The notes under the pieces: generated by a model
Seen by the model: only the letters and a program-made list of their open reading frames with translations
Told to the model about the DNA's origin: nothing
Database searches by the model: none
In this document: one piece after another, positions 31,981 through 56,135 of the stretch
Position numbering within the stretch: position 1 is the stretch's first letter
Layout of the letters: every line of letters begins with the position of its first letter
Program-made: the position numbers and the translations under genes
DNA from: Candidatus Blochmannia sp. SNP
Lineage (GTDB): Bacteria; Pseudomonadota; Gammaproteobacteria; Enterobacterales; Enterobacteriaceae
Reading direction: 5' to 3'
DNA: 64,000 nucleotides
NCBI RefSeq assembly: GCF_036549215.1
Contig: NZ_CP144371.1
Location: 372,001-436,000 of the forward strand

Positions 31981-32718
31981 TTATGTTAGTTTAACGAGCA
32001 TGTATAAACGATATAGATATATCAAAATAATTACAGATAATGCATTACTAAGGCTATTTACTAAAATTTTGGTAATGCATATCCAATAATCGTAATGATG
32101 GAATAAAATTAATATCAACATTGTTTTAATCAAAAACCATAGTAATATTGGTGGTGTAATTAAATGGAAATTACGAGAACTGATCTTTATACTAAGGCAT
32201 ATGGATTCCATAATAGGTAAATTATCAGTAATGATTATCACTGGAGTTAGACTTATAATAATAGCTAATAAAATACCTGGAATAATTGCTGTCATAAGCC
32301 CTAATTGTACAAATAATGTGGTATAAAAAATTAATAATAAAAATTTTGGAAAGATTAATATTGTTGATGTAATAATATTTCCTATGTTTAAATGTTGATT
32401 ATTTTTGTTAGTGGTAGATATTAGATGTAACATAGTTAGTATACTTCCGAATAAAAAGGTACTACTCAACATTTTAGAAATACCATTAGCAGCAGATAAT
32501 TTGAATAAAATGTATTGCTGATCTGCTGATAACTCTTTGATTACGTTGCGTAATCCTATTCCAATAAAATTATTCATGAATATAAGTTCTTCTTGTTTTG
32601 GCAACAAAACATAATCTAAACAAACTTGAATTAATGTTGTAATCAATATTAATATTGTAATATCAGTACAATAATTATGAATAAAATGGAATACATCTCG
32701 AGATAATTTAATTATCAT
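31981..32718 (-). CDS. yciC: UPF0259 inner-membrane protein YciC
   Basis: Polytopic membrane protein of unknown function, 245 aa (E. coli 247), with about five to six hydrophobic segments. Conserved points are SADQQYILFKLSAANGISKML, PKFLLLIFYTTLFVQLGLM, IPGILLAIIISLTPVIIITD and the C-terminal IYLYRLYMLVK. Position between tonB and trpA mirrors the E. coli 28-min order with outer genes removed. No function should be assumed. Confidence 0.88.
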   Translation of the reverse strand: MIIKLSRDVFHFIHNYCTDITILILITTLIQVCLDYVLLPKQEELIFMNNFIGIGLRNVIKELSADQQYILFKLSAANGISKMLSSTFLFGSILTMLHLISTTNKNNQHLNIGNIITSTILIFPKFLLLIFYTTLFVQLGLMTAIIPGILLAIIISLTPVIIITDNLPIMESICLSIKISSRNFHLITPPILLWFLIKTMLILILFHHYDYWICITKILVNSLSNALSVIILIYLYRLYMLVKLT

Positions 32719-39611: not shown

Positions 39612-39800
39612 TATTTAATTGTTCCAGTTATTTATTAAGACCTCATATATATTAACGGTTTGATTGAAATATTTTCAAGCATATTAAATGTTTTAAATAA
39701 CTGTTTAATTGCTATTAAATGGTTAGGTAAGCAGAATATTCAGTTTTGTCTTAATATGATTAAGTATCTACTTTATAAAGATATGAATACGATTTATCTT

Positions 39801-39829
39801 AGTATCACTATCTTTTTTTTAAATGTCAA
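39801..39829 (-). promoter_or_regulatory. possible trp operon promoter
   Basis: On the minus strand, a perfect TTGACA (39824-39829) and GATACT (39801-39806; four of six) are spaced by 17 bases. The spacing and the imperfect -10 resemble the E. coli trp promoter layout. It lies about 190 bases upstream of trpE. No palindromic operator of the TrpR kind was recognised around it. Confidence 0.4.
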
Positions 39830-40358
39830 ATAACAATAATTTTAAAGATAGAAAAAACTACTTATTGAATATAATTGTTTATGTATTATTACAGTAAGTA
39901 ATTATATGTTGTGGTTTTGTTTATAGTATAATTATTTTGATAAACATAAATACGAAATTATGTTGAATTATTTTAATAATACATATTATTACATTTCATA
40001 AAAATATTGAAATAAAAAATCATAAACATATGAAAATTTCTACTTATACTATATATATTTTCGATTATGTAAGTCTATGTTGTATATAAATCATTGTTAT
40101 TTTTTGGTTTTGTATAAATTGAGTTGTAATTATTATTTAATTTTGAACTAAATATTATATAGTTCTGTTTTAGTTAATGGTATAACTAAGAAGTGAATAA
40201 ATACTAAAATAAAGCATTAATAAATAGGTATTATAATTTTATTTTTATTTTTTATAAGTTTAGTATTAATTAAATAATGTTTATATAATTATAAAGAGGT
40301 ATAATAATAGTTAATTAAAATTCAATAAAAGTCTTTATGAGTGTGATTAAATTTAATT

Positions 40359-40382
40359 TATATATATATATATATATATATA
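40359..40382. repeat. (TA)12 dinucleotide run
   Basis: Uninterrupted TA repeat in the trpE-ribA gap. Confidence 0.8.
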
Positions 40383-40737
40383 TTTAACAAATTTTAGATT
40401 GTTACATGTTTATCTAAATTTTGGGATTGAGTCTAATTATGAAATAGTTGTATATTTATATATTTAATTCAAATTAAGTATATAATTAAATACAGTTTGA
40501 AAAAATTATATTTTATATTGAAAAAATGAAATTAATATGTTTGTTTTTATTTTTTCTTATATGTATGCGAAAATTTATGGAGAGTTGATAGATAAATTTT
40601 TTTTAACAAATGTTAATTATTACTTCATTTAAAAGTAATTTTTTTGAATATTAAGAATATATATTACAGGTGTGATGTATTTATTGAAAATATGAGGTAT
40701 TCTAAATTAGTTATATAAAATAATGATTAATAATAAT

Positions 40738-40794
40738 AATCATAAACAATCTATAATAATTATCGCCATTAATTATTATAGATTGTTTATGATT
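40738..40794. repeat. perfect inverted repeat, 25-bp arms, 7-base loop
   Basis: 40738-40762 is the exact reverse complement of 40770-40794; the loop is TCGCCAT, the only G/C-rich bases nearby. No T-run on either side. Far from any gene (over 1 kb). Confidence 0.8.
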
Positions 40795-41229
40795 TGTTAG
40801 TTTTTAAATGTAGATCATTTGTATAGAAATATATGACAAATACGTTGATTTAAAATAAACAAAGTTGATGGTACATCAAATATGGGATACAATACTTATT
40901 TTACATAACAAAATAAGCTATTAGAAGTCATTATGGTGTTTGAGATATGTATTGATTAATAGGGGTTATTATAGATAAAATGTCTTTTATTTTTATTTTA
41001 ATGAGTAATTTCAGTAGATGTGTGGAATAAGTATCTATTTTGGAATGGAGTCGTGTTGGATTTATTGAGTATTCTAAGATATTAATTAAAGTGTAGATTA
41101 TTTTTATAGTATTGAATATATTTTTCAGATAAAATTATGTAGTATATATATGTAATATAGTAAAGAATTTATATTTTATTAGATAAATGAAACGAAATGT
41201 AAATATATAATCATTGCGTTTAAATATAA

Positions 41230-41262
41230 AAATAAAGCTCCATGATATATGGAACTTTATTT
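41230..41262 (-). terminator. orphan intrinsic terminator, minus strand
   Basis: A 14-bp stem (41230-41243 with 41249-41262, 5-base loop). On the minus strand the RNA stem is complete, with one G-U pair, and runs into TTTTTATATTT. On plus the same position is a C-A mismatch. It therefore ends a minus-strand transcript, but the nearest minus-strand gene upstream (ribA) stops 900 bases away. Confidence 0.5.
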
Positions 41263-41531
41263 CATTTATTTTAGTAGAGTAGAGTGTAAGATCGGTTAAT
41301 GATAGAGGTTATGCTTATATTAAGGTATGTATGATGCCATTAGCTATCGCTAGATACATTGGGCGTTAATTATATCAATAAATATTTTTAAAAATATTGA
41401 TTAATTTATTATTTAAAAGTTTATATTTGTAATATTACTTATTTTAAATTGGGTTGTATGTGTCTTAAGCAGTATAAAATTAAAAAAGTTAATTATGAAA
41501 GTTTTTATAATTAATCAATATAATTTAACCC

Positions 41532-41566
41532 TATACTAACAATATATAATATATATTGTTAGTATA
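41532..41566. repeat. near-perfect palindrome, 17-bp arms
   Basis: TATACTAACAATATATA (41532-41548) and its exact complement (41550-41566) are separated by one base. Likely forms a hairpin with a small AT loop. Confidence 0.65.
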
Positions 41567-42043
41567 ATTGCATATATTTTGGTCTAATTTTAGACATGGT
41601 TAATTGATAGTTTAGTATTATAAATAGAATTTATAATTAAAAAAATTTTTTTAAAGATTAATTTTTCATTAAATTTTTACATATAAAAAGTGTAATCAAT
41701 GTAGATTGATATGGGGAGAATATAATTTATTTATTTTATGAATAAAAGGCAATAAGTATTTAATCGTATATTGATTAAATTTGAATAATTAATATTTTAT
41801 TTGATAAATTTTAAAAATTATAGAACCAAGATTTTTTGATTAATTTTATGTAGATGAAAGGAAATAATTTTTATATAAGGAATTAAATTAAATATTAAAA
41901 ACATAAATAGTTTATAATAATAGATTATTCATGTCTATTAAAATAGGTAAATTTTTGGAATTATTAAGTATAATTTAACAGTTTTTTGAAATGTAGTGTG
42001 TCAATATGAGCAATGTAAATACACAATTATATTTTCTATGGTT

Positions 42044-42097
42044 ATAGTATATTATTTATATCAATTCATGTATGAATTGATATAAATAATATACTAT
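42044..42097. repeat. perfect inverted repeat, 26-bp arms, downstream of ribA
   Basis: 42044-42069 is the exact reverse complement of 42072-42097; two bases between the arms. It begins 68 bases past the ribA stop and could stabilise or end the ribA transcript, though no U-run follows on the minus strand. Confidence 0.75.
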
Positions 42098-42165
42098 GAT
42101 GGGGCTAGTTTAGCTTATTTTGATAACACTATATAATAATTAATATTTAATTGTATTGAGTTTTC

Positions 42166-42765
42166 TTATTTCTGATTAGTTATTAATAAGTGTCCTAATT
42201 TAGATGCTTTAGTATCTAAATATCTAGAATTTTCTGGGTTTCTTCCTACTATTAACGGAATTCGTTCTGTGATGTTAATACATGATGTATTTAAAATTTC
42301 TACTTTTTTTGGATTATTTGTTAAAATACGTATTTTTTTTACGCATAATAATTTTAAAATATCTGCACAAATAGTGAAGTCTCGCTCATCAGGAGCAAAT
42401 CCTAGACATTGGTTTGCTTCTACTGTGTCAGCTCCGCTATCTTGTAATGCATACGCACGAATTTTATTTAACAATCCTATGTTGCGTCCTTCTTGCCGAT
42501 GATAGATTAAAATACCACGTTTTTCTTCTGTAATACAATGTAATGCTGTTTTTAATTGAAATCCACAGTCACAGCGTGAACTAAATAAGGCGTCACCTGT
42601 TAAGCATTCAGAATGTATTCGTGTTAATACTGGATCTGATCCAGTGATATCTCCGTATATTAATGCGACATGATTATGTCCGGTGAATTTTTCTTCAAAT
42701 CCTACTACTAAAAAATTGCCCCAAATTGTTGGTAATTTTGCTTCTGTTACACGCTTAAGTCGCAT
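42166..42765 (-). CDS. ribA: GTP cyclohydrolase II
   Basis: First committed step of riboflavin synthesis: opens GTP to the diaminopyrimidine phosphate. 199 aa with the zinc-binding cysteines in [21 protein letters not shown] (about residues 54-67). Downstream are [10 protein letters not shown] and the C-terminal region NNPKKVEIL. Start [13 protein letters not shown] aligns with E. coli. It indicates the symbiont makes its own flavins; other rib genes are not in the window. Confidence 0.96.
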
Positions 42766-44450
42766 ATTTGTTACCTCTTTAAAGATGTAATCAATAATAT
42801 TTGTTTTTTATTAAAGAATAGATGGTTTCTTAGCAGTCGTATCAAAGTGAAAAAATATGTCATATTATATGATATCTGTATTATGGTTATTTGTAGTACA
42901 ATATATTTTTAGTTAAAAATGAATCATTCAGTGTATATGATAATGGTATTATGGATACGTGTAATTACTAAAGTTTATTATGATAAACATCATATTGTTT
43001 TATTTATATAAAATATCTATAAATTGATATGAATATTTTATTGTCAGTGATTTTTGTTAAAACTATATGTAAAAGATAGTATTAATTAAACAATAAAAAT
43101 TATATTATACAATTATAAATATTAATATCTTTTTATAAATTATAAAATTATAATAATGGAATATTCTGAATAGAACTTATGAATATTTATTATAGACTGT
43201 TAATTTAGGATAAATTTTTTTAATATATATATAAGTAATACGTAATAATTGGTATTTATTTTTAGTTTTAGTTGCAGCTTTTAACTGTAGATTAAAATAA
43301 ATACTTTGATATTTAATTATATTTTTAATAAGAGTAAATATTATTAATACCTACAGTATATCATATGTATTTTAATTTTGTTTTGATATATAAATTAGTG
43401 TAGTAATCAGTGAAAACAGATAATATTTACATTTCAATTATATGATACGATCATAATTTTTAATATTTTATTTTTGTGTTTTATATCTTATTATTATTAT
43501 TATAAGATATAAACGTATAAAAATTGTAAAAGATAAATAAATAAAATTATTAATTTTTATATTTTTATAAAATAAATTAAATATAACTGTACAGATATTA
43601 AATATACATTTAATTATACGAATAAAATGATAACAATATTCGATAATATTTTATTATTAGATAATTTATTATGAGATTTATATAAACAAATAGAATAAAG
43701 ATGTTGTATATATATTATATATATAATGATTTCAAAAAAAAATAATTTTTAATAATGATAGCAAAGTTGTTATAAATTATTTAACAACTGTGGCTAGTTG
43801 TGTAACACTACGATAGTTATAAAATATATTATGAATTGATATATGTAGAGACGTAGTATAATTACGTATATCAATAATATATTTCATGTGTCAGTTAGTA
43901 TAGGCAGTTGGTTAGAAAATAAATCTAATGTAGTTAGTTAAATTTTGGTGAATAAATTGATTAGTGTACATGGAGTATTTTAAACTTTAATTATCAGTTA
44001 TAGTGTGATTTAATCATTTATTTAAATATAGGATTTTTAGAAGATATTTTATAAATTAATGTATTTAGATAAAAGTAAATGATTCAAACATAATTACAAT
44101 AATAACGAATAAATTTTAATATATTTAATCATACTACATTTTTTGAAAATTAGAGTTGTTTATGATTAAGTTATATGGTCTATTTAATTTTTTATGATGG
44201 AAATATTTTAATATTTTTTAATGTTGTGTATTCAATTATACAAATATTTATACATATTTAGTTTTATATCGCTATAATAGTAGCGTTTTTTAATTTTTTA
44301 TAAATATTTCAATGCTTAATTTATATAATTAAGAGTAAAAATAATTGTATAAAGTAAAACAATGGTTGTTAGATTAATTTTAAATGATTTTTGTATTGAA
44401 CATATTTTAATTGTTATTACAATAAACTGTTATAGTTTGGAGATGCAAGT
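42766..44450. other. 1.7-kb divergent non-coding gap between ribA and fabI
   Basis: Almost pure A/T. Contains a 12-bp hairpin (43480-43491 with 43502-43513) and a G/C-richer patch near 43780-43900 without an open frame. In E. coli the sap operon and others lie here; no remnant is recognisable. Confidence 0.55.
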
Positions 44451-53322: not shown

Positions 53323-53404
53323 GCCCGGGTGGTGGAATTGGTAGACACAAGGGACTTAAAATCCCTCGGCTTTAGCTGTACGAGTTCGAGTCTCGTCCCG
53401 GGTA
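53323..53404 (+). tRNA. leuZ: tRNA-Leu (UAA)
   Basis: Class II tRNA 14 bases after tRNA-Cys. Acceptor GCCCGGG/CCCGGGT, anticodon loop CTTAAAA with anticodon TAA at 53357-53359, variable arm CGGCTTTAGCTG, T-arm ACGAG-TTCGAGT-CTCGT. Discriminator A, as LeuRS requires. No CCA encoded. It reads UUA, the main leucine codon in this AT-rich genome. A 10-bp stem (53425-53434 with 53457-53466) follows. Confidence 0.96.
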
Positions 53405-53560: not shown

Positions 53561-54037
53561 TTAGCTTTTGATAAGTTTGCGTGTAATATTTATTGGTATA
53601 CCGGAACGATTTTTTAATGCTTCATTAACTACTTCATAATCTACATTCGAATCATTAACTAATATAGATTGTATTTTTTTATTTAAGCGTGCTATCACTA
53701 ATGTATTTAAATGATTTTCTTCTTTATTATCATGAGATAAAGGATTGTGTATTTCAAGATATTGCATACCGTTTGCTTCAACAGTGGTTTTTATAGGTTC
53801 ATTAATGAATTGTACTCTAGTACCTACAGGTACTATTTTAAAAAGAAATTCAATATCTTTAGGACGTAATCTAATACAACCGCGAGTTACTCTGAGTCCA
53901 ATTCCAAAGTTACTATTAGTTCCATGAATTGCATAGTTTTTACCTAAGTATAAAGCATACAGCCCCATTGGGTTATTAGATCCTGCTGGAAATATTGTAG
54001 GTAGCACTTCTCCACGCTTGATGTATTCATCACGCAT
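53561..54037 (-). CDS. erfK: L,D-transpeptidase ErfK/LdtA, C-terminal part of a frame-split gene
   Basis: Carries the catalytic half of a periplasmic L,D-transpeptidase that links peptidoglycan to Braun lipoprotein or cross-links it. The YkuD motif is intact: AIHGTNSNFGIG and RVTRGCIRL with the active cysteine. PAGSNNPMGLYALYLG upstream also matches E. coli ErfK. The first ATG (54037, MRDEYIKRGE) is internal to the family alignment: the matching residues NPVWIPTKN lie just upstream in the same frame, so this is not a natural start. On its own it would lack signal peptide and LysM-like region. See the nine-A tract at 54063-54071. Confidence 0.85.
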   Translation of the reverse strand: MRDEYIKRGEVLPTIFPAGSNNPMGLYALYLGKNYAIHGTNSNFGIGLRVTRGCIRLRPKDIEFLFKIVPVGTRVQFINEPIKTTVEANGMQYLEIHNPLSHDNKEENHLNTLVIARLNKKIQSILVNDSNVDYEVVNEALKNRSGIPINITRKLIKS

Positions 54038-54503
54038 ATTCTTGGTAGGGATCCAAACTGGGTTTTTTTTTATATTTTATTGAAGTTATCCAGTAATATG
54101 GTGTTGCGTTTTTGATTGTTCCAATAGCAATTGGTAATATAACGACAGTATTGCTATTTTCAGGATAATAATATAATCGCATTTCAGCGCTATTAATAAC
54201 GATACCTACATGGGGCGTATTTGGTAAAATTAATTGATGTGGGATTATTAATTTCTTTTCTGAATTTGGCAGATATACGTCAACATCTGGATTAGCTTCC
54301 AACATGTTGCTAATTCCTACTTGAAATTGTTCGGAAAAAAATTCGAGAGGGTGTATGTTATTTTTAGGCGTAAAAATTTCTATATTCTCTCCAATTAGTC
54401 TATTATTATTTTCAGGTAATGTATAAACAGTGGCATAAGCAAGATAATAACTCAATCCTATAAAGATAAATATTACATTATAAAAATATACTTTTATATT
54501 CAT
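54030..54503 (-). CDS. erfK: L,D-transpeptidase ErfK/LdtA, N-terminal part of a frame-split gene
   Basis: Encodes the signal peptide (about residues 1-24, hydrophobic then YATVYTLP), the LysM-like segment (GISNMLEANPDVDVYLP) and the start of the YkuD domain (GIVINSAEMRLYYYPENSNTV). After ITSIKYKKK the frame runs into ten unrelated residues and stops. The alignment with E. coli ErfK continues without a gap in the next frame at NPVW, exactly at a run of nine A. With eight A the two halves form one 310-residue-class protein. Confidence 0.85.
   Translation of the reverse strand: MNIKVYFYNVIFIFIGLSYYLAYATVYTLPENNNRLIGENIEIFTPKNNIHPLEFFSEQFQVGISNMLEANPDVDVYLPNSEKKLIIPHQLILPNTPHVGIVINSAEMRLYYYPENSNTVVILPIAIGTIKNATPYYWITSIKYKKKPSLDPYQEYA
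54063..54071 (-). other. nine-A tract that splits erfK
   Basis: Nine consecutive A on the coding (minus) strand between TAT and CCC. Loss of one A, in DNA or by polymerase slippage during transcription, restores the full erfK frame (Y-K-K-N-P-V-W). Slippage at such runs is established for Buchnera and Blochmannia. Confidence 0.8.
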
Positions 54504-54893: not shown

Positions 54894-55817
54894 TTAATAT
54901 AAAGAAGGTTCTCCAGGTGGACGGGTTTTAAATCTACGATGTAGCCACATATATTGATCAGGAGCTAATAGAATTACTTGTTCGACGACTTTATTAATAT
55001 ATTTGATCATGTCAATATTTGTTTCTATAGGTATTTCGTCTTGTTTGTTTGGTAAAATTAATAATTCATATCCGATAACATTAGGTAATCTACGTGCTAC
55101 AAAAGGAACAATTGCAGGTTTAGCTATTTTTGTGAGTATATAGGTCCCGATTGTACTTGCAGCATTTGATACTGCGAATAAGGGAACAAATACACTATTT
55201 TTATATCCATAATCATGGTCCGGTGCATACCAAACAATTTCACCATTTTTTAAGGCTTTAATCATGCCTTTAATATTAGCGCGATCTAACATCATTTTAT
55301 TAGATCTTAATCTCCCCTTAGTTTGTAGCCAATCTAATAACGGATTATTGTTGGGACGATAAACACCAATGCCTGGATTTATTATACCCAAAATTCGAGC
55401 CCCTAATTCTAAAGTAAAAAAATGCATTCCAATTAGTAATATACCTTTATTTTTTTGTTGTGCTTGTATTATATTTTTTAGTCCATTAATTTTAAACCAA
55501 CGTTTAATTCTATGTTCTGACCAAAACCAAGCCATTCCAGTTTCGAATATTCCCATGCCTATTGATTCACAATTTTTGTTGAATAAATCTTTTTGCTCTT
55601 GATTTGGTAAATTAGGAAAACAGAGTTCTAAATTTCGGCGAATTATACGCATGCGATTTAGCATAAAATATTTTGTAATACGACCAATTCTAGTGCCAAG
55701 ATAGTGTATTATAGGGTAGGGAAGCAGTACTAAAATATATAATGTTCCTATTCCTAACCAAATTAACCAAAATCGTGGGTGCAAAAAAGAATAATTAAAA
55801 ACTGGAAGCTTCTTCAT
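54894..55817 (-). CDS. lpxL: lipid A biosynthesis lauroyltransferase LpxL (HtrB)
   Basis: Inner-membrane acyltransferase adding the first secondary acyl chain (laurate) to Kdo2-lipid IVA. 307 aa. One N-terminal membrane segment (about residues 18-38) is followed by the acyltransferase motif HFFTLELG (His-X4-Glu, about 130), GVYRPNNNPLLDWLQ and WYAPDHDYG. The C-terminus QYMWLHRRFKTRPPGEPSLY is near identical to E. coli. The ATG at 55817 matches the E. coli length; a TTG two codons upstream is in frame. lpxM is absent from its usual place near pykA. Confidence 0.95.
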   Translation of the reverse strand: MKKLPVFNYSFLHPRFWLIWLGIGTLYILVLLPYPIIHYLGTRIGRITKYFMLNRMRIIRRNLELCFPNLPNQEQKDLFNKNCESIGMGIFETGMAWFWSEHRIKRWFKINGLKNIIQAQQKNKGILLIGMHFFTLELGARILGIINPGIGVYRPNNNPLLDWLQTKGRLRSNKMMLDRANIKGMIKALKNGEIVWYAPDHDYGYKNSVFVPLFAVSNAASTIGTYILTKIAKPAIVPFVARRLPNVIGYELLILPNKQDEIPIETNIDMIKYINKVVEQVILLAPDQYMWLHRRFKTRPPGEPSLY

Positions 55818-56135
55818 GTGCAATTAATTTTATCAAATGAATATATAAATGTATAAGTGTTATATTTATAAATAAATTGTGTTTACTACATTATCTAATA
55901 GAAATCTATATAATTTTTAGATATAAAAATTAGCTTTATAAATGTATTTATGTAAAAAAGCAATATTTGTGTTAATTAATCGTTTTTGTTAATTTGTGGT
56001 AATACTATCTGACTTATGTATATCATATAAGTTTATTTTATAAAAAATTAAAAATTAATCTTTTGAGATTTAAATGTTATTTAATCATATGAAAGATAAT
56101 TAGATATAAATTAATTTTCAGAAGTTATTTCGCTA
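55818..56135. other. non-coding gap between lpxL and rne
   Basis: 318 A/T-rich bases downstream of rne. Nothing recognised. Confidence 0.5.

Follow-up and report, generated by a model that had tools for sequence, protein, structure and literature searches.

We found that erfK/ybiS of Candidatus Blochmannia sp. SNP, a single-copy gene for an LdtA/LdtB-type L,D-transpeptidase, carries an old, genus-wide frameshift in a poly(A) tract and probably still yields a working enzyme, dependent on transcriptional slippage and at a reduced level. RNA polymerase would slip on the run of nine (A9) or ten (A10) adenines, and a minority of mRNAs, with eight (A8) or 11 (A11), would read through both halves of the gene. 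The full-length, exported enzyme made from those mRNAs would attach Lpp to peptidoglycan, and most mRNAs would give a truncated product, so that the gene would be on but turned down. The features of the locus are listed below, with positions in the window, i.e., the whole stretch of 64,000 nucleotides analysed, which lies in a genome of one contig with 783,877 bases.

53323..53404, plus strand: tRNA-Leu, downstream of erfK/ybiS and convergent with it
53561..54076, minus strand: 3′ frame of erfK/ybiS, with the rest of YkuD and Ldt_C; open from 54076, first ATG at 54037, 158 residues from there
53876..53878, minus strand: Cys of the [S/T]XGC motif (residue 54 of the 158-residue frame), nucleophile by homology, with Arg as X; motif from the available parts of PMC12729407 and PMC6478713
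53924..53926, minus strand: His of the HGTN motif (residue 38 of the 158-residue frame), catalytic by homology; role from the available part of PMC12729407
54030..54503, minus strand: 5′ frame of erfK/ybiS, ATG to TGA, 157 residues, with the middle region and the first part of the YkuD domain; positions 9-147 of NF007612
54063..54071, minus strand: A9 tract, where the reading frame breaks, compared across 12 genus copies
54894..55823, minus strand: lipid A acyltransferase family gene (Pfam PF03279), upstream neighbour and one of the control genes

The open reading frame listing gave two overlapping minus-strand frames, 54030-54503 (157 residues) and 53561-54037 (158 residues), with the A9 tract between them, just as an earlier note on this DNA had described. 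The note had also taken the halves for one ErfK/LdtA-like protein with its key motifs and active cysteine kept, and this part stood: the 5′ match to the 306-position LdtB family model NCBIfam NF007612 is continued by the 3′ frame at positions 157-305, which covers nearly the whole family, and both HGTN and TRGC, which fit the enzyme motif HG[S/T]N...[S/T]XGC, are present in the 3′ half. Pfam matches in the 3′ half were YkuD (2.7e-11) and Ldt_C (6.1e-17), and the start of YkuD in the 5′ half reached an E-value of 0.029 only, under the cut-off. Identity to E. coli LdtB was 49.7% for the 5′ half (LdtB residues 1-142) and 54.8% for the 3′ half (residues 151-305), and identity to LdtA was 48.1% and 53.2%, respectively. 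A close homologue of LdtB has been solved (4lzh, from a PDB search). The 5′ frame begins with a hydrophobic segment, as judged by eye; a LysM-like domain gave a sub-threshold match (E-value 0.075) in the in-frame copy of genome G003 and none in the window's 5′ half. Genome G000 holds one YkuD match in all. By homology, the two frames are one LdtA/LdtB (ErfK/YbiS)-type gene, in which the single continuous DNA frame of an L,D-transpeptidase is lacking in the window copy and, across the genus, in 11 of 12 copies. A scan for promoters and terminators gave 16 promoter-like sites against a shuffle mean of 13.9 and no terminators, i.e., nothing beyond shuffles.

The note had stated that E. coli ErfK can be aligned across the joint without a gap once A9 is counted as A8; the length of the joint departs from this claim. 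The spacing from anchor to anchor was 25 nt in the window, 26 nt in the A10 copies, and 27 nt, i.e., nine codons, in G003 and the outgroup G018. Nine joint residues were found in E. coli LdtA (by the anchor pattern), in LdtB (alignment ends at residues 142 and 151), in G018 and in G003; the pattern matched five of 20 rows, all with nine residues, and the other 15 rows were not measured by it. Furthermore, nine residues were present in every one of the 79 homologues whose frame reaches 280 residues. These homologues come from the best 80 of at least 566 loci in an alignment-based search, one locus of 241 residues having been set aside, and the 80 loci are nearly all Enterobacterales by title, with none titled Blochmannia. 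Note that the search with the window's 3′ half alone gave zero relatives, and that the alignment query gave the 80 loci. Since reading A9 as A8 yields eight joint residues and A11 yields nine, the window's tract is, by this comparison, two A below the ancestral length rather than one A above it. A8 is thus one of two transcript lengths that would restore the frame, and it is the one that does not match the homologues.

We compared the run among 14 Blochmannia genomes including the window's own, 13 of which matched, as the note had proposed for related genomes. The joint poly(A) puts 11 of the 12 kept copies out of frame, with A9 in seven (G000, G002, G004, G006, G008, G010 and G013) and A10 in four (G005, G007, G009 and G011); the copy of G003 is in frame. 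G001 has a relic with 14 stops in its matched 5′ region, and neither half of erfK matched in the genome of G012. Within both halves as far as the joint, none of the 11 out-of-frame copies carries another stop. In a tree built from seven neighbour genes (1639 gap-free residues), in which support was 63% for the placement of G001 and 54% at one shallow node, the out-of-frame copies are spread over deep branches. As judged from this distribution, the poly(A) frameshift is old and genus-wide, which contradicts the suggestion that the gene was freshly broken. The run of G009 starts four bases further upstream than that of the window, relative to the 5′ anchor and by eye, and its frameshift is possibly an independent event. 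A second run, A10, lies in the 5′ half of five genomes, some 123 bases ahead of the 3′ match (loci L004-L007 and L009); unlike the tract at the joint, it is in frame in all five. The same comparison bears on an assembly error, in which the true genome would be in frame. Some sequencing methods are error-prone at homopolymers, but out-of-frame tracts occur in 11 assemblies, the window's included, and a homopolymer frameshift in erfK has already been published for Blochmannia (available part of PMC3017870), making such an error exceedingly improbable.

The two phases set the direction in which the frame would have to be restored. To come back into frame, an A9 copy must lose one A or gain two, and an A10 copy must gain one or lose two. 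Parsimony requires the tract to have switched between A9 and A10 three times or more, with a fourth change when G003 is included, and even close relatives differ in phase (G000 and G010 versus G007). Ribosomes, too, can slip on runs of A, and if ribosomal frameshifting rather than polymerase slippage restored the frame, the A10 copies would need a −1 shift only. The A9 copies, however, would need +1 (or −2), so that no single direction is conserved, and the phase changes between close relatives. Polymerase slippage can act in either direction, as the opposite needs of A9 and A10 demand, and a fixed ribosomal shift would suit one phase only; slippage is therefore favoured, and we regard the ribosomal alternative as quite improbable. 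Corrected transcripts make up 12-50% for other genes of Buchnera and Blochmannia in the accessible part of a review (PMC5009743), and a corrected fraction of 30% is given for another gene in that of PMC3017870. Among transcription errors in Buchnera, homopolymers accounted for 151 of the 157 insertions and 16 of the 57 deletions, and single-base insertions are the common event (available part of PMC5574713). Against slippage rescue, the A9 phase needs either the loss of one A, leaving the enzyme one residue short, or the gain of two, and the available part of the same study describes Buchnera transcriptomes with no restored frame.

The latter point also favours a pseudogene, i.e., inactivation of erfK/ybiS by the frameshift, with both halves as passively decaying remnants. 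The DNA frame is broken, the gene is eroded in G001 and missing among the matches of G012, and ybiS of a Blochmannia lineage of Camponotus vicinus is placed among putatively inactivated genes in the accessible part of a 2025 paper (PMC12779916). To set against this, the dN/dS across the halves, a comparison also suggested in the note, was 0.175 (5′ half) and 0.104 (3′ half), within the range of ten neighbour genes (0.031-0.270). The ratios were obtained by the Nei-Gojobori method, dividing the sum of dN by the sum of dS over 18 pairs among nine close genomes, three more distant copies having been left out. Judging from these values, purifying selection acts on both halves. An untranslated 3′ half would approach a dN/dS of 1, and the value of 0.104 speaks against non-translation, even though it should be taken with care since the dS of the 3′ half is the highest of all twelve and lowers the ratio. 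A further reservation about a working gene is that the dN of the halves (0.067 and 0.068) is surpassed by only two of the ten neighbours (range 0.013-0.087). The relaxed selection and accumulating stops of a pseudogene are seen in G001 and not here: no additional stop is present in 11 of the 12 kept copies, and the remaining one is in frame. Together with the conserved A tract and the retention of Lpp described below, these observations leave the pseudogene reading unlikely.

We next compared the tract with control genes, namely 33 of 42 candidate frames, nine having been dropped because an orthologue was missing, less than 85% covered or interrupted. The run at erfK is at least nine in all nine close genomes. 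In the controls, 23 A/T runs reach nine in at least one of the nine genomes, and none of them stays at nine or more in all nine, with three staying at eight or more; 58 runs reach eight in at least one genome, and six stay at eight or more in all. Among nine AAA-AAA-AAN triplets in the control genes of the window genome, one is kept in all nine genomes. The conservation of the tract relative to the controls gave a Fisher p of 0.042 at best, which counts among the points against slippage rescue. Over approximately 60 kb per genome in the nine genomes, 43 of 44 reference frames were listed, with two far-end frames incompletely covered, and the only frame split besides erfK among 41 other gene frames concerned one gene in one genome (G004); these frames were taken from the window, so that genes split in the window itself could escape this survey. 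Against this background, the recurrence of the erfK split in 11 of 12 copies exceeds chance. The gene concerned is the orthologue of a 245-residue gene at 31981-32718 (minus strand), split between two frames near residue 105, possibly by a further frameshift. Elsewhere in the window, the stretch 39612-44450 is low in G+C (19.5% in 40001-44000) and contains one sizeable gene, 42166-42765; it looks like large spacers or decayed genes.

Alternatively, the halves could be two polypeptides that reassemble, the 3′ half being made from the internal ATG at 54035-54037. This ATG precedes, by two bases, the TGA that ends the 5′ frame (54030-54032), an arrangement that permits coupled restart. On the other hand, G009 and G011 lack the ATG, the 5′ frame ends at differing places relative to it in different species, the split falls inside the YkuD domain, and no export signal is apparent to the eye in the 3′ half. 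We therefore consider separate translation of the halves highly improbable.

The expected substrate of the enzyme is Lpp, which LdtA, LdtB and LdtC of E. coli attach to peptidoglycan via its C-terminal Lys (available part of PMC12729407). Lpp was found in 11 of the 14 genomes, and all 11 proteins end in Lys. G001 has an eroded lpp relic (L063:5169-5315, minus strand) alongside its eroded erfK, and lpp was not found in the matching neighbourhood of G012; G008, whose stretch was masked, was left out of the count. Among 13 assessable genomes, the gene and Lpp are thus both present in 11 and absent or eroded together in two (G001 and G012), giving a Fisher p of 0.013 for an association that comprises two losses only and was tested after being seen; these points and the masked G008 limit its weight for slippage rescue. 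Shared presence and loss with Lpp supports erfK/ybiS being in use. A link between erfK/ybiS and Lpp in Blochmannia was not found in the literature searched, outside which most subscription journals lie.

Reduced expression by slippage, which the note had offered as its other option, thus draws indirect support from selection on both halves, tract conservation and co-occurrence with Lpp. A bolder version is that the out-of-frame state is itself selected as a dimmer that holds Lpp attachment, and hence the tightness of the envelope, low via slippage. It would account for at least three switches between out-of-frame lengths with just one of 12 copies in frame, but the chance that all three changes stay out of frame is 0.125 under equal steps. 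We put this version forward tentatively and consider it rather doubtful.

We also examined the X residue of [S/T]XGC (53876-53887, minus strand). It is Arg in 11 of the 12 Blochmannia copies and His in G009. Among the best 80 of at least 566 LdtB-type loci, X was His in 78 of 79 homologues, the remaining one being missed by the pattern. In E. coli, it is Gln in LdtA and His in LdtB, and compared relatives carry A, S, Q or G. Arg in place of the His of SHGC was considered as a lost catalytic residue and dropped, since the motif leaves X free in the available parts of PMC12729407 and PMC6478713 and the relatives vary at this position. An Arg at X is nevertheless unusual among LdtB-type proteins, which counts against a working enzyme.

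Although it would be annotated as broken, erfK/ybiS is therefore probably in use, as the co-occurrence with Lpp supports, and the genus offers natural A9, A10 and in-frame versions for measuring slippage rescue. The hisH of the 2025 paper is presumably the same as the slippage-corrected histidine gene of the review. The former is called a pseudogene in several Blochmannia lineages (PMC12779916), and the latter, from an ant endosymbiont, is cited as slippage-corrected (PMC5009743). Our reading of erfK/ybiS disagrees with the 2025 paper, which takes the ybiS of a related lineage for a dead remnant (PMC12779916).

Compared with E. coli LdtA (ErfK) and LdtB (YbiS), the gene is homologous over both halves and keeps the catalytic His and Cys, in a genome that has Lpp with a terminal Lys; it differs in its broken frame, in the Arg at X (Gln in LdtA and His in LdtB) and in being the one YkuD match in its genome. 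Poly(A) frameshifts rescued by slippage were reportedly described in Buchnera and Blochmannia by Tamas in 2008 and Wernegreen in 2010. The erfK tract resembles these genes in having a single indel in a long A/T run, an otherwise intact gene and persistence over species, and with this class it shares a frameshift in a long A run of a gene otherwise in frame, purifying selection and a conserved tract; the cDNA evidence described for the class concerns other genes. For erfK itself, a homopolymer frameshift in Blochmannia and its rescue by slippage were already proposed in print in 2010 (Williams and Wernegreen, available part of PMC3017870). That case is alike in gene name, genus, homopolymer frameshift and proposed rescue, and it may concern the very tract at 54063-54071. 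Beyond it, the present analysis covers 14 genus genomes, with selection and tract controls, and adds three things: the corrected, canonical joint length, the occurrence of both phases among the 12 copies, and the tie to Lpp, together with which the gene is kept or lost.
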